Below, in pieces: positions 1,445 through 32,388 of a DNA stretch of 34,589 nucleotides. Position 1 is the first letter of the stretch. Every line of letters begins with the position of its first letter. The position numbers were made by a program, and so were the translations under genes. This DNA is from Candidatus Tiddalikarchaeum anstoanum. GTDB taxonomy: Archaea > Nanobdellota > Nanobdellia > Tiddalikarchaeales > Tiddalikarchaeaceae. Location of the stretch: contig CABMEV010000004.1 of the NCBI GenBank assembly GCA_902385255.1, positions 1 through 34,589 of the forward strand, in the 5' to 3' direction. The notes beneath the pieces are model-generated. The model saw nothing but the letters and a program-made list of their open reading frames with translations, had not been told where the DNA came from and did not search any database.

Positions 1445-3361
1445 ATGAAAATATTAACTATACACTCGGATTATATTAAATTCCAGCCATTAAAGAAAGC
1501 TATACAGTCTCCTGAAGAAGTAGACATGGCAGAGCACATGATGAAAGAATGCCTTGTAGTATTCTCGGCAGTGGAAAAACCTGACGAAGACAACATTGAA
1601 GGAGTCGCTGAACGATTAGTGGAGGAAATAATAGACGTTGCGGACCAGGTGAAAACCAAAAAAGTAGTAATTTACCCATACGCTCATCTGTCAAGCAACC
1701 TGGCAAAACCGGCTGCCGCAATGGAAGTATTGAAGAAAGCTGAACAATTATTGAAGGAGAAAGACTACGATGTTCTAAGAGCGCCTTTCGGATGGTACAA
1801 AAAATTTGAGATATCCTGCAAGGGTCACCCTTTGTCAGAACTTTCAAGAGAGTTTAACGGGGAATCAAAACACCCAACAGGGGAGAAAGTCAGAAAAGAA
1901 GAAAGCGAATTCTCAAGGTATTTAATAATATCACCAAGCGGTGACGTAGAGGAAGTAACAGAGAAAACCTGGGACAAGGCAAAAATATGGAAAGATAAAA
2001 CGCAGAGAGTTGACATGCTAAAAAGTTTCGTTAGAAATAATCTTTCTGGAAACATACCTAAAGGGGAGCCTAAACACGTTGAACTCATGAGAAAATTAGA
2101 ACTTTATGACTACGTGCCTGAAAGCGATGTTGGAAACCTAAGAAGCTACCCAAACGGCGCATTAATATTTGACTTGTTCAAAGACTACGTATTATACAAT
2201 TGCGCGTTAAAACTTGGATGCATGAAATTATACAACCCATTAATGTTCGACGGAGAACAACCAATAATCCACGACTTAGTCAAAGACTTCCATGAAAAAG
2301 ACTACAGAGTATTGTCAGAGAAGAAAGAATTCATACTAAGATACGCAAGCGACCCGTTAAACTTCCCATTATTCAGCAAGTTAAACATAACTTACAAACA
2401 AATGCCCTTCGCAATATATGAAGAAGCGCCAAGTTTCAGGCTGGAAAAAAGAGGAGAATGCGTAGGACTGAAACGACTCAGGGCCTTCAACATGCTGGAT
2501 GTGCACGTATTCACAAAAACTGAAGAGGAAGCGACACAAAAAATAGAAGAGTTATGCTACAACTTTAGTGACATGTTAAAAAATGTCATAGGCGACAAAT
2601 GGGTTCTAGGCTGGGAAATAGTTGAAAAATTCTGGAACAAGTACAAGGAATACTTTGTCAGGATAAGCAAGAAAATGAACTGTCCAACTTTCATAAAATT
2701 AATGCCCGAGATGAGCCATTATTACGCCTTCAAGAACGAGTACCAAGCAATAGGATTAGACGGGGCAAACGTCCAAGTCTCAACACTCCAATTAGATGTC
2801 AAGGACGGAGAAAGATTTGACATTTCATATATAGACAAAGACGGCAAAAAAAATCCATGCTATATTATACATACAGCTCCTGTTGGAAGTCTTGAAAGAT
2901 GCATGTATTTAGTACTGGAAAACAGCGTCTACGACGAAGCGGCAGGAAAGTGCCCTATGCTTCCATTATGGCTTGCACCGGAGCAAGTAAGAGTCATACC
3001 TGTAATTCAGAACCATTTTGAAGCAGCAGTTAAACTCTCAGAAGAATTAGAGAAGCACGGGATACGAGTCGGAGTTGACGACAGGGAGGAAAGCCTCGGC
3101 AAGAAAGTGTTTGACGCTAAGAGCAAATGGGTGCCTTATGTAATAGTAGTCGGAGACAAGGAAGTGGCAAGCAAGAAGTACAACGTTGTGATAAGGTCCG
3201 AGTCAGACTTAAAGAAGGACGCCAAGAAAGACATGACTGATAAAGAAATAATAGACCACATAAAAGAGAGAACAAAAGGACTTCCATTCAGGCCAATGTA
3301 CGTTAACAAATTTGTAAGCAAGAGAATCGTATTCGTAGCGTGGAGCCAGAAAAAAGAGTAA
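1445..3361 (+). CDS. thrS: Threonyl-tRNA synthetase, archaeal type
   Basis: Charges tRNA-Thr with threonine in the cytoplasm. At 638 residues it has the archaeal layout: an N-terminal editing domain related to D-aminoacyl-tRNA deacylase (about 1-145, starting MKILTIHSDYIKF as in archaeal homologues, which fixes the start), a class II catalytic core (about 220-520) with motif 2 around FRLEKRGECVGLKRLRAF (331-348) and motif 3 near GSLERCMYLVLEN, and a C-terminal anticodon-binding domain (from about VRVIPVIQ, with GVDDREESLGKK). Where I recall archaeal enzymes having a Cys (RFAACFGQF), this one reads RYASDPLNF (299-307), so the metal site may differ. It is transcribed alone behind a long leader. 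Confidence 0.95.
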   Translation: MKILTIHSDYIKFQPLKKAIQSPEEVDMAEHMMKECLVVFSAVEKPDEDNIEGVAERLVEEIIDVADQVKTKKVVIYPYAHLSSNLAKPAAAMEVLKKAEQLLKEKDYDVLRAPFGWYKKFEISCKGHPLSELSREFNGESKHPTGEKVRKEESEFSRYLIISPSGDVEEVTEKTWDKAKIWKDKTQRVDMLKSFVRNNLSGNIPKGEPKHVELMRKLELYDYVPESDVGNLRSYPNGALIFDLFKDYVLYNCALKLGCMKLYNPLMFDGEQPIIHDLVKDFHEKDYRVLSEKKEFILRYASDPLNFPLFSKLNITYKQMPFAIYEEAPSFRLEKRGECVGLKRLRAFNMLDVHVFTKTEEEATQKIEELCYNFSDMLKNVIGDKWVLGWEIVEKFWNKYKEYFVRISKKMNCPTFIKLMPEMSHYYAFKNEYQAIGLDGANVQVSTLQLDVKDGERFDISYIDKDGKKNPCYIIHTAPVGSLERCMYLVLENSVYDEAAGKCPMLPLWLAPEQVRVIPVIQNHFEAAVKLSEELEKHGIRVGVDDREESLGKKVFDAKSKWVPYVIVVGDKEVASKKYNVVIRSESDLKKDAKKDMTDKEIIDHIKERTKGLPFRPMYVNKFVSKRIVFVAWSQKKE

Positions 3362-3502: not shown

Positions 3503-5614
3503 ATGAAAATGATGATGAAAAAATTAGCCTTTTTGATAACCGTGCTTGCAGTAATAGGTATTACTTTCGCAGCAGTACCATATACAGCAAGTGTTGCAGT
3601 GACACCCACAATAATAGGACGCGGTGAAACATTTGCAATTTACGGATACATCGAACACGCAACTGGAACGGTATACCCATTATCCAGTATGAAACTTAAA
3701 GTATACAAGTCTGGAACATCAGGTTCACCAACAGAAATAACAAGCATAGAATACATGGCTGACGCTGAAAACCCGGATAATTTAATACTAAACGGGGCGT
3801 TTCTTGTACGCAGCATATCAACAAGCGGATTCTCAGACGGAACTTACACAGTGCAGTTATTAATCAATAACGAAGTAGTAAGCACAGGAACATTCGCATA
3901 CAATTCAGCACTCGTCAGGAATTCAACGCTTACAATAAGCTCAGTGTACCCTGTCGCAGGATCATTGAATGTTGAATACTCAATAAGCAAGACAAACACC
4001 TTAAACGATGCAGTATATGACGTGAAATTCTACGCACCAACAAAAGCAGACATGAACGCTTTGGCACTGCAGGAATCACTTTACGTCGGAAGTTCGAACA
4101 CTTCAGCAAGAATACCTTACGCATCAATGACATACCCATTCACAAGGGGAGCTAATATTTTTGTAATAACTGCCGCTTCAAACAACAGCGACTCAACAAA
4201 GAGTTACGTAGAATTCATGAGAAGCGGTGACGTAGAAACATCAGACTCAAGCGCCACACTGACTCTTGGAACATGCAGTGCTAAGGAAGGAGTATCAAAA
4301 CAATGCACTTTCACAGTTACCAACAGAGGAATTAACCCAGCAGGTTTCACAATAAATGCGCAATCAGCATTGACAACACAAGTTAGCTTCACAACAGGAC
4401 TTGTACAGCCAGGACAGAGTGCAACAGGAACACTTACACTAACTGCAGCAATAGGAGCTGCGCCCTCAAAACCAGTAACACTTAATTTATACCACGGTTC
4501 AACATTATTAGATACTGTTACAGAAAGTGTTGCAGTCGAGACTCGTGATTTAATAGACAGTGTAAGCATATCCAGTTTCACAATAACACCTGAAGAGATA
4601 CACCCTGGAGATGAGATAACAGTAACGGTCAAATTATCAAACACAGGAGACTTTGTTGAGAGAGTAAAACTGCAGTACGCATTAGGCGAAGATGAAGTCA
4701 CACTCGGAACGACTTATACACTGAACGTAAGACAGAATAAGACAGTAACACTAAACCTGATAGCACCTGAAGAGACAACTTCATTGTCAGTTAACGTGCT
4801 AAAAGAAGATTCTGTACTTGCAGGAAGAATTGCAAACATAAACGTTGAACCATACACTTTCACACCATACGCAGACTGGACAACAAGCTACAAGTACGCT
4901 GAACAAGGAAACTCAACAACTAACATCCTCAAGATAAAGAACAACGGAAACATCGGAGAATACTACCAAGTTTCAATAATTAGCGAGTTTGCATCACTTG
5001 ACCAGAGAGTATACTTAACACCTGGACAAGCAGTGTCAATCACAGTGCCTGTAGTTGTAAGCCAGACAGCAGAGATAGGGGCGAAGAGTATAAACGCAAC
5101 AATCTGCTCGCTAACAAGCAATGAATGCGCAACTGACGTGTTCACCCTGACAATACTTGAGATGGCAAGAGACCGTTCAACAGTCGTGCTTAACGATTCA
5201 GTACAAGAATTAACCAGCGACCAAGGTGCTGTATTCACTGTACAAGTTGAGAACTTTGAAGGAGAAACACACACTTACAAGCTGAGCATGGGGACTTTTG
5301 ACGGAACATTACAGATAAACCCAACACAGTTAACACTGCTTAACGGGGAAAGCGGAGTCTTCTACGTATTCGCACAGCCAGCACAGAAAGAGACACAAAA
5401 CCTGGCTTACACAGTACTTAGGGAGAACGACGCAGTAAACAGAGGAAACTTAACTATAAAGATGGGCGCTACAGGACTTACAGGATTCATAACACTAGCA
5501 AATGCAGGAGATGTAGGACTAATAGTGTTTGGAGCCTTAATAATTGCAGGACTAGTCTTTATAGGAATAAGATCCTATAACCAGTCAAAAGTAGAATTAA
5601 AATATTGGAGATAA
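3503..5614 (+). CDS. Secreted, membrane-anchored S-layer/COG1361-like protein
   Basis: A 703-residue surface protein. Residues 1-23 form a signal peptide (basic MKMMMKK, hydrophobic core, then Ala). The body is a series of beta-sandwich, Ig/CARDB-like repeats of the kind grouped in COG1361: each has a phrase such as NTGDFVERVKLQYAL or NNGNIGEYYQVSI followed by a PGQAVSITVPV-type turn. A membrane segment near the C-terminus (VGLIVFGALIIAGLVFIGI) and a short basic tail anchor it in the cell membrane. The start has GAGG 6 bases upstream. The next gene begins 9 bases after the stop and encodes a second anchored surface protein, so both probably build the cell envelope. The exact structural role is unproven. 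Confidence 0.75.
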   Translation: MKMMMKKLAFLITVLAVIGITFAAVPYTASVAVTPTIIGRGETFAIYGYIEHATGTVYPLSSMKLKVYKSGTSGSPTEITSIEYMADAENPDNLILNGAFLVRSISTSGFSDGTYTVQLLINNEVVSTGTFAYNSALVRNSTLTISSVYPVAGSLNVEYSISKTNTLNDAVYDVKFYAPTKADMNALALQESLYVGSSNTSARIPYASMTYPFTRGANIFVITAASNNSDSTKSYVEFMRSGDVETSDSSATLTLGTCSAKEGVSKQCTFTVTNRGINPAGFTINAQSALTTQVSFTTGLVQPGQSATGTLTLTAAIGAAPSKPVTLNLYHGSTLLDTVTESVAVETRDLIDSVSISSFTITPEEIHPGDEITVTVKLSNTGDFVERVKLQYALGEDEVTLGTTYTLNVRQNKTVTLNLIAPEETTSLSVNVLKEDSVLAGRIANINVEPYTFTPYADWTTSYKYAEQGNSTTNILKIKNNGNIGEYYQVSIISEFASLDQRVYLTPGQAVSITVPVVVSQTAEIGAKSINATICSLTSNECATDVFTLTILEMARDRSTVVLNDSVQELTSDQGAVFTVQVENFEGETHTYKLSMGTFDGTLQINPTQLTLLNGESGVFYVFAQPAQKETQNLAYTVLRENDAVNRGNLTIKMGATGLTGFITLANAGDVGLIVFGALIIAGLVFIGIRSYNQSKVELKYWR

Positions 5615-7255: not shown

Positions 7256-7768
7256 ATGAATGCTGAATTAATAGAGAAGAAAGTAATCTTGAATGATGAG
7301 AAATTATCCAGCGCTTTATACAATAAGAGCTCTTTCGGCGCCTTGGTTAATAATAAATTGGAACTATCCTTGACTGAAGCGTTATACTTGATAGAGAAAG
7401 AGAAGATAATAGTTTATGATAATAAGAAGCAGTTAACGTACGATTCTTTCCTGAAAAAAGCCTCGCGGTTGGACAAGAAGTTCATGGAGAAATACAAGGT
7501 TTACAGGGACTTAAGAAACAGGGGCTTTATCACAAAGACTGCATTGAAATACGGCGCAGATTTCAGGGTTTACGAGAAAGGCTCCCGCCCGGGAGACGAG
7601 CACGCAACGTTCACAGTATTATCAGTCGGGGAGCACGACCCGTTCTCATGGCAGGAGTTCTCAGCAATGGTGAGAGTTGCTCATACAATAAGAAAAGGCT
7701 TATTGATAGCTGTAGTGGATGATGAAGGGGACGTGACGTACTACAGCTGTTCATGGCAGAGATTATAA
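7256..7768 (+). CDS. endA: tRNA-splicing endonuclease
   Basis: Cuts introns out of archaeal pre-tRNA (and pre-rRNA) at bulge-helix-bulge sites. The 170-residue length fits the single-domain, homotetrameric type. The C-terminal catalytic domain begins at YRDLRNRGF and carries the catalytic triad Tyr106 (DFRVY), His116 (GDEHA) and Lys147 (RKGLL). The 10- and 31-residue spacings match those of the Methanocaldococcus enzyme. The N-terminal half is the usual alpha/beta domain. The stop codon lies 6 bases inside the end of the convergent minus-strand gene. The tRNA-His seen in this window shows no intron, so its substrates lie elsewhere. Confidence 0.95.
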   Translation: MNAELIEKKVILNDEKLSSALYNKSSFGALVNNKLELSLTEALYLIEKEKIIVYDNKKQLTYDSFLKKASRLDKKFMEKYKVYRDLRNRGFITKTALKYGADFRVYEKGSRPGDEHATFTVLSVGEHDPFSWQEFSAMVRVAHTIRKGLLIAVVDDEGDVTYYSCSWQRL

Positions 7769-8522: not shown

Positions 8523-9437
8523 TTATATTTCCTCAACATCGTAGCCTTCGAAGCGCAAAAAATTAGTGAACTGCTCGCTGAAGCCGTGGTGCACGAATAT
8601 CTTCTTCGGACTGCTTAATTTCACGGTTGTTAATAACTCCTTGAAATCAGCGTGGTCGCTTATTGTGAAGCCTGAATCCGCGCCGAATCGGTACTTGTAA
8701 TCGTCAAATATGTTCCAGCCGCTGAATACGGCTGATTTAATCTTCCTTTCGCGGCTTAATTCCTGAAAGTACTCATTCTTCTTTGACATTAATGGGGCGA
8801 ACAATAAGTCGCTTTTTTTTAATTCATTATGAGATGGTAGTTTGACGCCGTACTTCTCGTAGACCTTGTTATAATTTTTTACCGAGTCATGAATGGATGA
8901 GTTATAATCCCTGAAATAGTTCTGAACACTCTGGTTCTTCCCGAGTGCGTAGCCGCATAATACGCTGAGATAACCTTTCTTTGTATTATCATCAACCCAG
9001 TCTTTTGCGCGCTTCATCTCGTCGTCGAAATTCGGGAATACGAATTTTGGCATGCCGAATGTTGATTCAATAATCAGAGTATTGCATGGTATTGGCGTGA
9101 AGCTTTTATTGAATCCCTTGTTTTTTAATGAGAAATCGCCTGTGAATACGAGTTTTTGTCCGTCTTCGTCTATTACCAGGCTTTTGCTGCCAAGTATGTG
9201 GCCGGAATCCACCATTTTCATATTTTCAGGAAGTATTGCCCTGTTCAGGTTTAATCCTTTTATTTTGACCAATTCGTCTGTTTCGTCGCTGCATAATACT
9301 TTATTCTTAGTCTTGAACAAGTGGTCGCTGTGGGCGTGCGATAAGAATGCGATGTCGCAGTCTTTTCCTGCATAATCAAGCCCTATTACGCCTTTCTTTG
9401 TCTTGACGCTTAAACCCTTGCCTTTCAGAACTTCCAT
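8523..9437 (-). CDS. Metallo-beta-lactamase-fold hydrolase, COG1236-like (RNA/DNA nuclease type)
   Basis: A 304-residue metal-dependent hydrolase of the group that includes archaeal mRNA 3'-end processing factor-like and SNM1/Ysh1-like nucleases. The zinc motif HAHSDH is at 34-39, followed by the next metal ligands in DSGHILGS (His80) and FTGDFS (Asp101), and late His residues in SDHADF and VHHGF. This spacing fits the beta-CASP/COG1236 families, where HxHxDH is followed by a GH(I/L)xGS motif. The length is shorter than full CPSF-like nucleases, and no KH domain is present. The likely activity is nucleic-acid cleavage, but the substrate is not shown. A TATA-like run (9462-9472) lies about 30 bases before the ATG. 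Confidence 0.8.
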   Translation of the reverse strand: MEVLKGKGLSVKTKKGVIGLDYAGKDCDIAFLSHAHSDHLFKTKNKVLCSDETDELVKIKGLNLNRAILPENMKMVDSGHILGSKSLVIDEDGQKLVFTGDFSLKNKGFNKSFTPIPCNTLIIESTFGMPKFVFPNFDDEMKRAKDWVDDNTKKGYLSVLCGYALGKNQSVQNYFRDYNSSIHDSVKNYNKVYEKYGVKLPSHNELKKSDLLFAPLMSKKNEYFQELSRERKIKSAVFSGWNIFDDYKYRFGADSGFTISDHADFKELLTTVKLSSPKKIFVHHGFSEQFTNFLRFEGYDVEEI

Positions 9438-9505: not shown

Positions 9506-9585
9506 TGTAAGATGATGAGAACTACAGGCGATCTGAGCATAGGTATTTGCGGTGAAGAAAATTTTTGAGGTGATCTCTGATTACA
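9506..9585 (+). ncRNA. Probable C/D box 2'-O-methylation guide RNA
   Basis: An 80-base RNA with the full archaeal box set in order: C box ATGATGA (9512-9518), D' box CTGA (9533-9536), C' box GTGAAGA (9552-9558, one change from RTGATGA) and D box CTGA (9577-9580). The ends pair as TGTAA (9506-9510) with TTACA (9581-9585), giving the terminal stem next to the C/D kink-turn. The D' guide is 9519-9532 and the D guide 9559-9576; the D' to C' spacer (15 bases) is longer than usual. The D guide contains GAGGTGATC, complementary to the conserved 3' end of 16S rRNA. A well-placed TATA box supports it. The alternative is a short leader peptide ORF (18 codons from 9512). Confidence 0.68.
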
Positions 9586-9673: not shown

Positions 9674-11068
9674 ATGAGTGAATCTATAAATATGATTAAA
9701 TCAGCCATTAAAGAAAACTATGTTCTGCGTGACTTTTTTTGCCCGGAACTAGGACAACTTTACGCTGGAAAAACAGGAAGAGTGCATAAATTTGGGGATA
9801 CTATTGCACTTGGAAGAATTGACAGTGTATCAAGCTTTGACATAGTAAGCGAGCAATATATACCTTTTAAAGGTGTATGCCTGAACAAGCAAGCAGTTGC
9901 AGGTCATGAGCTGGATGCAAAAAACGCAGAAGTTCCTTCAGCTTACGAAAAAAGTCCTGATTCAAATATTATGATACAGAAGGCGGCGAAGAATACCGGC
10001 ATTGAATGGATAGTTAGAGGATATTTCACGGGAAGTTTATGGAAAAATTATAATAATAAAAAAATGCGCGAATTTCCATGGTTTAAACTTCCTGAAGGAT
10101 TAAAACAGTTTCAAAAATTCGATGAGTACATGTTTACACCTACAACAAAAGCAGTAACTGGGCACGATCTGGATATATCACTTGAGGAAATAGTGAAGAG
10201 AAAATTATGCACGCAGGAACAACTTGAATTAATGAAAGATTATTGTTTCAGATTATTTGAGGAAGGTTCGAAACGCGCTGAAGCCGCAGGTTACATACTT
10301 GTTGACACTAAATACGAGTTTGGATTCTTGCCTGATGGAACAATAGTTGTAATAGATGAGATTAACACACTTGACTCTTCAAGATTCTGGGATAAGACAG
10401 ATTATGAAGCTAAAATAACAGCAGGTAAATCACCTGAAGAGTGGTCTAAAGAGTTTGCACGTGCGGCTTTCGTGGAGGGAGGCTACAAAGAAGGGGACAC
10501 TAGACTTCCATTGTTAAGCGAGGAGCAGATAATGAAAATATCAAGCATTTATGTGGATATGACGCAGAGACTTACTGGTGAAAAAATAACATATAATCCT
10601 AATTATATGGATATTAACAGAAGAATATTAAATAATTTGAGAAAAGAGAATTTAATAAAATCAGGAAAAGGCCTTGTAGTATTACTTGCTGCAAGCGATA
10701 AAGATGCAGAGCATTACAGCAAGATATCCAAGAAATTACAGGAGCTTGACATACCTGTTATTATGCCAACACCTACATCAGCGCATAAGCATACAAAAGA
10801 AGTGCTTGACACAGTTGAATATTATAATAGAAGCACAGAACCTTTAGTGTATATAGCTGTTGCAGGCAGGAGCAACGGGCTAGGTCCTGTAGTTGCAGGA
10901 AACACTAAATTCCCTGTAATAAGCTGTCCGCCTTTCAGCGACAATGCAACAATGCAGATGGATATCTGGTCAAGTCTGAGAATGCCTGGAGAACTTCCAA
11001 TGAGTGTAATAATCGACCCTGCAAACGCGGCTCTTGAAGCTAAAAGAATACTGGACTTAGCAAGGTGA
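9674..11068 (+). CDS. purCE: Fused SAICAR synthetase - AIR carboxylase (PurC-PurE, PAICS-like)
   Basis: A 464-residue bifunctional purine enzyme. Residues 1-285 are SAICAR synthetase (ATP + CAIR + aspartate to SAICAR), with VRGYFTGSLWKNY (114-126), DTKYEFGF (211-218) and DEINTLDSSRFW (228-239). Residues 334-464 are an AIR carboxylase with TSAHK (368-372), AGRSNGLGPVVAGN (397-410), VISCPP (415-420) and WSSLRMP (432-438). These are the marks of class II PurE, the CO2-using animal type, rather than class I (which has AAHLPG), so no PurK step is needed. Domain order matches animal PAICS. A G-rich SD (9658-9662) precedes the ATG by 11 bases. purB follows after 7 bases, so three consecutive steps are encoded together. 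Confidence 0.92.
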   Translation: MSESINMIKSAIKENYVLRDFFCPELGQLYAGKTGRVHKFGDTIALGRIDSVSSFDIVSEQYIPFKGVCLNKQAVAGHELDAKNAEVPSAYEKSPDSNIMIQKAAKNTGIEWIVRGYFTGSLWKNYNNKKMREFPWFKLPEGLKQFQKFDEYMFTPTTKAVTGHDLDISLEEIVKRKLCTQEQLELMKDYCFRLFEEGSKRAEAAGYILVDTKYEFGFLPDGTIVVIDEINTLDSSRFWDKTDYEAKITAGKSPEEWSKEFARAAFVEGGYKEGDTRLPLLSEEQIMKISSIYVDMTQRLTGEKITYNPNYMDINRRILNNLRKENLIKSGKGLVVLLAASDKDAEHYSKISKKLQELDIPVIMPTPTSAHKHTKEVLDTVEYYNRSTEPLVYIAVAGRSNGLGPVVAGNTKFPVISCPPFSDNATMQMDIWSSLRMPGELPMSVIIDPANAALEAKRILDLAR

Positions 11069-19326: not shown

Positions 19327-22300
19327 TTATTTGCAGGCATGATTCGTACAAGTTAATCCTGTTGTGCAGTTGCTGTCAACACAACAGTCACCTTCATAAT
19401 ATACACTATCACACCCGACAGTTCCAGTGAAACAATCACTTGTACAAGCAGCGTAAGTTTCTCCGCTGTCGCAGGCGCCGTTTCCGCAAGTTGGAGTGTA
19501 ATGTGTTTGGGCAGTATCAATCCATAATTTTACGTTGTCAACTGCGAAACTTGTAAGAACACTATTTTTCGCGTAGAACTTTATATTCTGATATGAGCAT
19601 GATGTTGAAGTACCTGAAATTGTAACTGCTAAATAAGTTCCAGGGCCGAAATCCCTCGAGTTGGAATTGTCAGGTTCGTAGCCGGCAACTACAACACCGC
19701 TTGAAACGTACAAGTCAAATCTTAATACGTACTTATTGCCAGTATTGCATAAGGATGCTACATTAGCATAAACTCCAGCTCCTGCAGTGCTTGTGCTCAC
19801 GTTCTGCACGTGATTAGAGTAGATAGAATTAATTGAGTACTCATTACTGTTAAGGTTGTTAATGCTAAAACCGCTGGCTAAACCGTTATTAAACTGTTCG
19901 CAGTCAAAACTTGCAGCAGCAACCCTTTCATAAGCGCAGTTTGAACTGCTAGTTCCTGGATTTGCACAAACACTCCACCAGTTTGGACAAGGCATTAAAT
20001 CCGAGCATATTACTGTTGCGCACTTAGCGCCGTCATAAATGTCAGGATAACTGCATATTTTACAGTCATTATCTGTTTCATTAGTGCAGCCAGTAGGGCA
20101 GAAGCCGTCACTATTAATGCATGAATTTATAGTATTACATCCTGATGTGCAAGTGTTAGGATTAGCGCAATTCCTAGGGTTGCCCTGGCCGATAAATATG
20201 TTAATATCATCAACGTCGAATATTACATTGGAACTGTTTGCGTAAAAAATTATATTCTTGCTGCCTGGAGTGTTGCAGTTTACAGTGCCGTTAATGGCGT
20301 AAGTCTGCCACTCGTTTCCGAGAGCGAATATTTTAGCAAGGTTGCTGTTAGCACTTGCAGCTTCATAAGAGAATAATACGGAGCCTGATTCAACCTTTAT
20401 CTTCGCTGTTATGAAGAATGGTTTGCCGTCAACGCATGGAGTGTAAGCGTAAACCCCGCTGCCAAAAGTGTTAGCAGTAACACGGGCATAGCCTCCTGTC
20501 AATAACATATTGCTCGCTGGGTTAACAGTATTAGTTAAACCAGTAAGCGATGATGAAAAAGTCAAACTCTTAGCTGGAACGTTGCACATACTATTATTGG
20601 CGCAGTTGTCCCTGTAACTTCCGCAGCAGATACCGTTGTTTCCATTTACTAAAGTGCCGCTGGATAAGAAATCATTATGGCATGCGAAGTCAGTACTGCA
20701 GTAATCCCTCGTGCAGTAATTGTTATCATTGCAGTTTGATTCAGCCACGCACTCATATTTTTTGCAAAGATTGGAAGCATAATCGCAATAATAAGTTAAT
20801 CCCTGGTTCTTATAACAGTTAACCATGCAAGTCTCATTGGATACGCACTCTGTTAAACAACTAGTTGAAAAACTGGCATTATATAATGCGCAGTCGCTGA
20901 CACTAGTGCAGGATTTCATGCACTGGCCTTGGGTGCTGGAAAAACCAGAGAGGCAAGTAGTAGTACAATAAGCATCGCAAGCGCCATGATTCATACAATA
21001 ATAGAACGCGTTAGGCGAACCCTTATCGCAGTCAGTGTTGCTGTCGCATACAGGATTTATGCAGGCTTCACGGCCGTTAACCACACAAACAGTCTGGTTA
21101 GGCAGGCACTGCTCGTACGCGCAGTAAGAACTTGGAGTTCCACTATTCCAGCAATGGCCGGCATAATTGGAGCCTCCCTCAACACAATCAGAATCAGTAT
21201 TGCATACAGGCCTTATGCAGGAGTCTCCGAATCTTACTTTCCCTGACGGGCAGGAAAATTCTGAATAAGGCGTGTTTACGCAGTGAGAATCACAAGGACT
21301 TAATCCCATAACGCACTCATCAAAAGTGGTATTGCTTCCGTCATCACATTCAGAATTACTATTGCAAGTCTGCTGGCAGTTGCCGTCGCATAATAACTGG
21401 CCAGTTGGGCAGTCGCTGCAGTCAACATCAGTTAACCTGTTGCAGCCTAAAGGGCAGTAATTATCACTCCTTAACGAGTTGCATGAAGGCTCTGTGAACT
21501 TGCAGGAAGATTCGCAGGTATTAGCCAGTACGCAACTGTCTATAGTTGCATCAATCCCGTCGCTGCAGTCCCCGTTTAATCTGCAGACAGGGCTTATGCA
21601 CGTTCCGAAGCAGCAAATCCTGCCATTACTGCATTCCTCATTCACGCTGCAGCTCGCATTGGCATAAACAAAATTTGTTACCTCGCTTACAGCGCCGAAG
21701 TTCTCAACTTTTATTACAACGCGCCAAAGCCCGCTTTCATTAAGCACTAAATCATTAATAACCCACTTGTTGCCGTCCTGCACTCCGTCTAAAGTGTAAG
21801 CTGTTCCTTTAGGGCTGATAAAATCGAAAAGTACGCGCTGAGCGCTTGACGATGTTGAAAAGAAAGGCGAGAAGGCGACGCCGCTCGTAACATTTTTCGT
21901 GCTGAAATTATTAACAGGCTCGGCAGGGATGCTAAGAATTAATGCAAGACCTATGAAGACTATCAATATAACTGCGCCAAGAAGGACTTGCTTGCGAAGG
22001 TCCAAGTTTAAATCCAAATGGCTGACTTTTTTCTCAATAGATTCAGGATGGACTTTTACAAGGCCAGGCTTGTTATCATAACCGCACTTATTGCATTTCG
22101 GGGAATTATGAACCAACTCGTTGCACTGAGGGCACTTCCAAAGTTCAGGGTAGTTAATATTAGACGGATATCCGCATTCAGTGCACGACTCACTGTCGCT
22201 GACTAATGTTTTACAATTCGGACAATGCCATAATGATGGAAAATGCGAGCTTAAACTAAAATTACAATGAGGGCACTGCCTGTTATTTTTAACAGTACTA

Positions 22301-22338
22301 CCGCAGTTTGGGCACTTCCAACCGTCAGGATAAGTCAT
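19327..22338 (-). CDS. Membrane protein with three cytoplasmic zinc ribbons and a large Cys-rich ectodomain
   Basis: A 1003-residue protein. Residues 1-90 hold three tandem CxxC-x9-CxxC zinc ribbons (Cys9/12/22/25, 39/42/52/55, 69/72/82/85), each opening W-x-C-P. One membrane segment (about 117-138, VLLGAVILIVFIGLALILSI) follows with no signal peptide, so the ribbons should be inside and the rest outside. The outside part has an Ig-like stretch (150-225), a long Cys-rich array with phrases such as CNSNSECDDGSNTT and NTDSDCVEGG, and two jelly-roll, carbohydrate-binding-like domains, each ending near VDDINIFI or VDNVKLWI. The end has a CGNGACDSGE knot. The family is not recognised. Its ATG is about 27 bases from a GTTTAAAA box. 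Confidence 0.7.
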   Translation of the reverse strand: MTYPDGWKCPNCGSTVKNNRQCPHCNFSLSSHFPSLWHCPNCKTLVSDSESCTECGYPSNINYPELWKCPQCNELVHNSPKCNKCGYDNKPGLVKVHPESIEKKVSHLDLNLDLRKQVLLGAVILIVFIGLALILSIPAEPVNNFSTKNVTSGVAFSPFFSTSSSAQRVLFDFISPKGTAYTLDGVQDGNKWVINDLVLNESGLWRVVIKVENFGAVSEVTNFVYANASCSVNEECSNGRICCFGTCISPVCRLNGDCSDGIDATIDSCVLANTCESSCKFTEPSCNSLRSDNYCPLGCNRLTDVDCSDCPTGQLLCDGNCQQTCNSNSECDDGSNTTFDECVMGLSPCDSHCVNTPYSEFSCPSGKVRFGDSCIRPVCNTDSDCVEGGSNYAGHCWNSGTPSSYCAYEQCLPNQTVCVVNGREACINPVCDSNTDCDKGSPNAFYYCMNHGACDAYCTTTCLSGFSSTQGQCMKSCTSVSDCALYNASFSTSCLTECVSNETCMVNCYKNQGLTYYCDYASNLCKKYECVAESNCNDNNYCTRDYCSTDFACHNDFLSSGTLVNGNNGICCGSYRDNCANNSMCNVPAKSLTFSSSLTGLTNTVNPASNMLLTGGYARVTANTFGSGVYAYTPCVDGKPFFITAKIKVESGSVLFSYEAASANSNLAKIFALGNEWQTYAINGTVNCNTPGSKNIIFYANSSNVIFDVDDINIFIGQGNPRNCANPNTCTSGCNTINSCINSDGFCPTGCTNETDNDCKICSYPDIYDGAKCATVICSDLMPCPNWWSVCANPGTSSSNCAYERVAAASFDCEQFNNGLASGFSINNLNSNEYSINSIYSNHVQNVSTSTAGAGVYANVASLCNTGNKYVLRFDLYVSSGVVVAGYEPDNSNSRDFGPGTYLAVTISGTSTSCSYQNIKFYAKNSVLTSFAVDNVKLWIDTAQTHYTPTCGNGACDSGETYAACTSDCFTGTVGCDSVYYEGDCCVDSNCTTGLTCTNHACK

Positions 22339-32176: not shown

Positions 32177-32313
32177 ATTTGCAAGTATCTAAATTAAAAG
32201 ATAATTTATAATATATTGTGTAGACTGATTACTGCTTGAATTACTTTCTGGCGGGGTAATCTGTTTCTATTCCAAACAAGGAAACACTTAATTATTTTAT
32301 ATAAAAGAAATAG
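32177..32313. other. Intergenic stretch with small inverted repeats
   Basis: No gene seen. It holds GATTAC (32227-32232) paired with GTAATC (32256-32261), enclosing the only GC-rich patch (GGCGGGG), then GTTTC (32263-32267) paired with GAAAC (32281-32285), followed by an AT-rich run. These could be a terminator for the upstream gene, or a small RNA. Not assigned. Confidence 0.3.
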
Positions 32314-32388
32314 GGCCTGGTACGGAATTTGAATCCGTGTCAACAGGGCCACAACCTATTATCCTAACCAAACTAGACTAACCAGGCC
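32314..32388 (-). tRNA. tRNA-His (GTG)
   Basis: Read on the minus strand, GGCCTGGT pairs with ACCAGGCC as an 8-bp acceptor stem: seven pairs plus the extra G(-1):C73 pair that identifies tRNA-His. D arm GTCT/GGAT with loop AGTTTGGTTA; anticodon arm ATAGG/CCTGT with loop TTGTGGC, so the anticodon is GTG; T arm ACGGA/TCCGT with loop TTCAAAT. There is no intron. CCA is not encoded: the bases after C73 are CTA. A TATA-like TTTTTTAAA lies upstream (32419-32427). Confidence 0.95.

Follow-up and report, generated by a model that had tools for sequence, protein, structure and literature searches.

A predicted double-guide C/D box sRNA of Candidatus Tiddalikarchaeum anstoanum with complementarity to the 3' tail of 16S rRNA

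The DNA analysed, hereafter the window, is the 34,589-nucleotide stretch of contig CABMEV010000004.1 from Candidatus Tiddalikarchaeum anstoanum. Positions 9506-9585 of its plus strand, located between a divergently oriented metallo-beta-lactamase-fold gene (8523-9437, minus strand) and a purC-purE fusion (9674-11068, plus strand), were confirmed as a predicted double-guide archaeal C/D box sRNA that contains all parts of this RNA class, its four boxes and terminal stem as well as both k-turns (Table 1). The purC-purE fusion joins SAICAR synthetase and AIR carboxylase domains (PF01259 and PF00731) in one 464-aa ORF and is followed by an adenylosuccinate-lyase-like gene; as any match was found in just seven of the 56 searched genomes, the purine synthesis genes look unusual for the lineage. 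The window further carries a gene for a tRNA intron endonuclease with N- and C-terminal domains (7256-7768, plus strand), a tRNA-His gene (32313-32387, minus strand) and a 1003-aa ORF with no Pfam match (19327-22338, minus strand).

Table 1. Elements of the predicted sRNA in the window and of related C/D RNAs, the latter given in the coordinates of their own loci.
Feature	Position	Strand	Remarks
TATA-like element TATTTATAA	9474..9482	+	putative, from sequence; A-rich BRE-like stretch before it
Terminal stem, 5' arm TGTAA	9506..9510	+	perfect pairing with TTACA 9581-9585; descriptor and fold
C box ATGATGA	9512..9518	+	exact RTGATGA consensus; bulged G9511 before it
D' guide GAACTACAGGCGAT	9519..9532	+	pairs best with 16S nt 1340 (E. 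coli C1402); tentative
D' box CTGA	9533..9536	+	box search, descriptor
D'-C' loop	9537..9551	+	GCA 9537-9539 pairs with TGC 9548-9550, also in the predicted fold; bulged G9551
C' box GTGAAGA	9552..9558	+	single change from RTGATGA
D guide region AAATTTTTGAGGTGATCT	9559..9576	+	9567-9576 pairs with the 16S 3' end GGAUCACCUC
D box CTGA	9577..9580	+	box search, descriptor
Terminal stem, 3' arm TTACA	9581..9585	+	descriptor and fold
Altiarchaeota C/D sRNA (L149)	1452-1515	+	intergenic; four boxes
Altiarchaeota C/D sRNA (L052)	3535-3597	-	intergenic; four boxes
Jingweiarchaeum C/D-like RNA, same class (L113/L017, genome G009)	3612-3690 (L113)	-	C, degenerate D' ATGA, C' GATGATT, D

From 5' to 3', the elements are arranged as TGTAA-G-ATGATGA (C)-14 nt-CTGA (D')-GCA...TGC-G-GTGAAGA (C')-18 nt-CTGA (D)-TTACA. 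The end boxes C and D conform to RUGAUGA and CUGA, and the internal D' and C' boxes are likewise present, the latter with one mismatch. Both the C/D and the C'/D' motifs fit a predicted k-turn in which a stem, TGTAA/TTACA and GCA/TGC, respectively, lies flush against a 3-nt bulge; in the internal motif, the A of the C' box could pair with the U of the D' box, where a canonical k-turn has U-U. The TATA-like element precedes the 5' stem by 24-32 nt, as is usual between a TATA box and the start in archaea, and the sRNA is probably expressed from its own promoter. When both strands of the window were scanned with the full C/D'/C'/D descriptor including a 5-bp stem, this was the single match, and the same descriptor was found in none of 300 dinucleotide-shuffled windows. 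The C...D'...D pattern yielded 13 matches in the organism's own genome compared with four for the reversed pattern; the other 12 were rejected as similar sRNAs, as they lacked the full descriptor. Single-strand fold stability was ordinary (z 0.68), as expected for C/D RNAs.

Spacers of archaeal C/D sRNAs usually measure about 12 nt. In its C/D'/C'/D organization, its k-turns, its two nearby 16S sites and the box+5 rule, the window RNA corresponds to the archaeal double-guide C/D sRNAs as described by Dennis et al. (2015; PMC4644070) and Lui (2018), from which its 18-nt C'-D spacer and stemmed 15-nt D'-C' loop are unusual departures. The Rfam models sR1, sR2, sR11, sR20 and snoPyro_CD gave weak whole-length matches through the C/D architecture, none of the Rfam families exceeded its gathering score, and as the guide sequences differ, the RNA does not belong to the same family. 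Genes for Nop5 (PF01798, E 5.7e-43) and fibrillarin (PF01269, E 1.9e-66) are present and adjacent to each other (G000:C3, ~44.3-45.8 kb) in the 1.16-Mb assembly of 13 contigs.

A preliminary description, made from the window alone, had proposed that the D guide is complementary to the 3' end of 16S rRNA in a 10-bp duplex with one G-U pair, and the organism's own 16S, which ends in ...GCGGGTGGATCACCTCCT, bears this out. The guide core GAGGTGATC (9567-9575, plus strand), separated from the D box by a single T (9576), forms together with this T nine Watson-Crick pairs and one G-U pair with the 16S 3' end (GGAUCACCUCCU), the target segment in the tail being GGAUCACCUCC. According to the box+5 rule, position 5 of the D guide faces 16S nt 1461, i.e. 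the C of GGAUC corresponding to E. coli C1533, and the predicted methylation target is thus the same as that counted previously. The duplex energy of -19.5 kcal/mol was reached by none of 400 shuffled guides, whose median best value was -12.0 kcal/mol, when 16S and the partial 23S were searched, and by four of 500 shuffles when a slightly different guide window was compared with 16S alone; the length of the perfect run is by itself less striking, as 6.7% of the shuffled guides reach nine Watson-Crick pairs. Elsewhere in the rRNAs, the next-best sites for the D guide, 23S nt 342 (-13.1) and 16S nt 564 (between about -11 and -12), were rejected as much weaker. A longer rival duplex, which the preliminary description had named as evidence against the tail target, was not found in 16S or in the 23S present, which lacks ~0.9 kb. 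The 16S (L013, G000:C1:74088-75555) and 23S (L014, 86000-88051) genes are unlinked, lying ~10.4 kb apart, and the 23S gene ends at the end of contig C1, so that this portion is absent from the assembly. The strongest specificity result for the D guide is that GATCACCTC occurs at exactly two places in the assembly, namely in the 16S tail (plus strand) and in the sRNA (minus strand), and hence no other RNA of the assembly, be it an mRNA or a tRNA, offers a perfect 9-bp partner.

The guide core was also considered as a Shine-Dalgarno (SD) sequence and rejected, as the stretch at SD distance downstream holds no plausible start codon, purC beginning at 9674, and as GAGGTGATC has no second occurrence in the assembly. 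SD-like matches of at least 4 nt were found at eight of the 28 window genes, which loosely supports the mixture of leaderless and SD-led mRNAs supposed in the preliminary description. The scarcity of such leaders, the restriction of the core to this one site and its complementarity to the CCUC of the anti-SD would all suit a regulator of mature ribosomes that binds the exposed anti-SD of the finished 30S subunit, lowers SD-led translation and favours leaderless mRNAs. We regard this as very improbable, because a full set of C/D boxes would hardly be expected of such an RNA, nor would a second guide directed to a region that is buried in the mature decoding site, and because C/D RNPs act in biogenesis.

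To our knowledge, no RNA-guided modification of the 16S 3' tail is known. In the main texts consulted on archaeal C/D sRNAs no guide to this tail is named, 195 predicted 16S positions being listed in the supplementary tables of PMC4644070. The 30S modification table of Pyrococcus abyssi, which shows nothing in the tail (PMC7005279), speaks against its methylation, though for another organism. Eukaryotic U13 and yeast snR45, described as guiding the acetylation of an h45 cytidine via bipartite pairing (PMC5464676), resemble the window RNA in being C/D RNAs that pair near the 3' end of the small-subunit rRNA, at 18S helix 45, during late assembly. The window guide, in contrast, is continuous and placed next to the D box, which suggests that a ribose on the 3' side of h45 is methylated; an acetylation guide of the U13/snR45 type was rejected, as bipartite pairing around a looped-out h45 cytidine is lacking.

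The D' guide, whose likely target was absent from the preliminary description, adds the decoding site to the picture. Its best site in 16S, given in Table 1, is matched by seven contiguous Watson-Crick pairs (-15.0), compared with 10 bp for the D guide, and since 77 of 500 shuffles performed as well, this match is not significant alone and the target at C1402 is suggestive only. The 5' strand of h45 (nt 1436) and 16S nt 195, each with 7 bp, were rejected as alternatives at chance level. Within the class, the D' guide sequence of the window RNA was found in this genome only. In eukaryotes, Cm at the equivalent of C1402 is guided by snR70 and SNORD43, and the bacterial enzyme is RsmI. The would-be target of the D' guide is the same decoding-site ribose, but the window RNA is a different RNA, with a match of only 7 bp and with the tail guide on the same molecule. 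A ribose methyl is tabulated for E. coli, as m4Cm1402, and for the yeast equivalent (PMC2584109), and P. abyssi carries Cm1376 (PMC7005279, Table 3), which, judging from its spacing to hm5C1378 and to the KsgA site, we infer to correspond to E. coli C1402.

Guide drift among relatives had been named as a finding that would speak against a tail guide, and the outcome is divided. Next to a CTGA box (AGGTGATCN{0,4}CTGA) the guide was absent from all four same-family genomes, and wherever the 16S 3' end of these genomes could be read, the tail is identical; the guide recurs, however, both within the class and among Altiarchaeota. The C-to-D pattern was found in three of 378 class genomes, namely the window genome, the Jingweiarchaeum genome G009 and G359, whose match (L018) lies inside a coding ORF and was rejected as chance. 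A scan of ~85,000 species genomes gave at least 117 matches, mostly chance matches in bacteria; among the matches listed, none of the bacterial ones contained all four boxes, and the two that did, L149 and L052, are both from Altiarchaeota. The searches were restricted to exact TGATGA and CTGA boxes with the +5 register kept, so that divergent relatives will have been missed. The two Altiarchaeota sRNAs have canonical spacers of 13 and 14 nt, the latter shorter than the 18-nt C'-D spacer of the window RNA, and weak Rfam C/D scores; the Jingweiarchaeum RNA has spacers of 12 and 15 nt, a TATA-like element upstream and likewise scores against Rfam C/D models. All three carry the same D guide as the window RNA, and beyond boxes and guides no homology is visible among the sRNAs of the different lineages.

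The absence from same-family genomes, together with the fast guide drift described for archaea (PMC7994747), would be accounted for by an orphan or drifting guide that matches the 16S tail by chance. Such a coincidence seems highly unlikely, however, given the energy comparison with shuffled guides, the uniqueness of the match in the assembly and the recurrence of the same D guide in C/D sRNAs of other lineages. The genomic settings of these RNAs also bear on another possibility. The window sRNA lies 88 nt upstream of the purC-purE start on the same strand, and archaeal leaders that bind L7Ae are on record (PMC5539422 and PMC6298567), so that the element could be a k-turn in a regulatory 5' leader of purC-purE with an incidental 16S match. 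A leader would nevertheless have no need of two k-turns with two guide spacers, nor of a D guide that fits 16S, and in Altiarchaeota and Jingweiarchaeum the RNAs lie next to unrelated genes: L149 and L052 represent orthologous loci, in each of which the sRNA ends at the stop codon of a convergent SMC-family gene. We consider a leader function the least probable of the readings weighed here.

The D' guides of L149, L052 and G009 lay outside the search pattern and were therefore unselected, and in each of them the best 16S partner is the 5' strand of h44. The L149 guide forms 11 pairs at A1408 (-22.7 kcal/mol, 2 of 500 shuffles), that of L052 10 pairs at 1409 (-19.3 kcal/mol, 12 of 500) and that of G009 11 pairs at C1409 (-22.2 kcal/mol, 1 of 500). 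G009 was compared with its own 16S, whose tail and h44 both fit its guides, and the Altiarchaeota pair with that of the relative G386 as a stand-in, because 16S is missing from both Altiarchaeota genomes; in another relative, G381, where h44 reads GTCATACCACT, the fit of the Altiarchaeota D' guides is lost. A1408 is also a methylation site predicted in S. acidocaldarius and N. equitans (PMC4644070), and it coincides with the h44 site of the Altiarchaeota D' guide. In G009, h44 reads GTCACGCCATC and the guide GATGGCGTGA, and where h44 is GTCAAGCCACT the guide is AGTGGCTTGAC; on this comparison, the predicted D' guide tracks its h44 target. At least three archaeal lineages carry putative dual guides to h44 and the 16S tail, and among these the window RNA shows the weakest match to h44.

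While the h44 base at box+5 varies (1402, 1408 and 1409), the tail base in this position is C1533 in all four RNAs, in a register fixed by the search pattern. The variation in h44 looks as if pairing outweighed the methylated base and, with both regions matched in three lineages, would fit an assembly chaperone or timer, whose guides bind h44 and the tail together, block folding or mRNA binding of the decoding site and the anti-SD in the precursor 30S and leave at a late stage, whether or not methylation takes place. The target regions flank the h44-h45 element and are both functional sites, and chaperoning by other dual guides has been proposed by Dennis et al. (PMC4644070). The constant tail base, by contrast, is as expected for methylation, and nothing about a 10-bp duplex is unusual in a methylation guide; we therefore treat a chaperone as a possible but rather unlikely main function.

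We consider it probable that the window RNA is a double-guide C/D sRNA directing 2'-O-methylation at C1533 in the tail and probably, as Cm1402, in h44. This reading draws on the boxes, the predicted k-turn geometry, the duplex with the organism's own 16S, the uniqueness of the target, the Nop5 and fibrillarin genes and the recurring target pair, all of which are seen in the sequences. The sRNA would assemble with L7Ae, Nop5 and fibrillarin on the 16S 3' minor domain, where pairing of the D guide with the tail would lead to 2'-O-methylation of C1533, just before the anti-SD, and the less strong pairing of the D' guide with the 5' strand of h44 probably to Cm1402. The simplest mechanism would be one in which C1533 and one h44 nucleotide are methylated while the 30S subunit is assembled, and as a side effect h44 and the tail might stay joined, or unavailable, up to the maturation of the subunit. 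With a constant tail base and a varying h44 base, tail methylation may be what counts most, and the h44 pairing may help with placement or folding. More speculatively, and with less likelihood than the chaperone, the RNAs could form a recurrent archaeal class that holds the h44 strand of the decoding site and the anti-SD tail simultaneously, marks C1533 and gates the pre-30S particle from SD-led initiation until release.

In archaea as well as in bacteria, it is the 3' tail of 16S that selects mRNAs. A guide to it that recurs in separate lineages, joined with a decoding-site guide that tracks h44, provides Cm1533 as a concrete, testable site and might connect the assembly of the subunit with the choice of mRNAs. 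The kind of RNA is known already, whereas the tail would be new as a target, and archaea probably mark it chemically, and perhaps briefly cover it, while the ribosome is being built.
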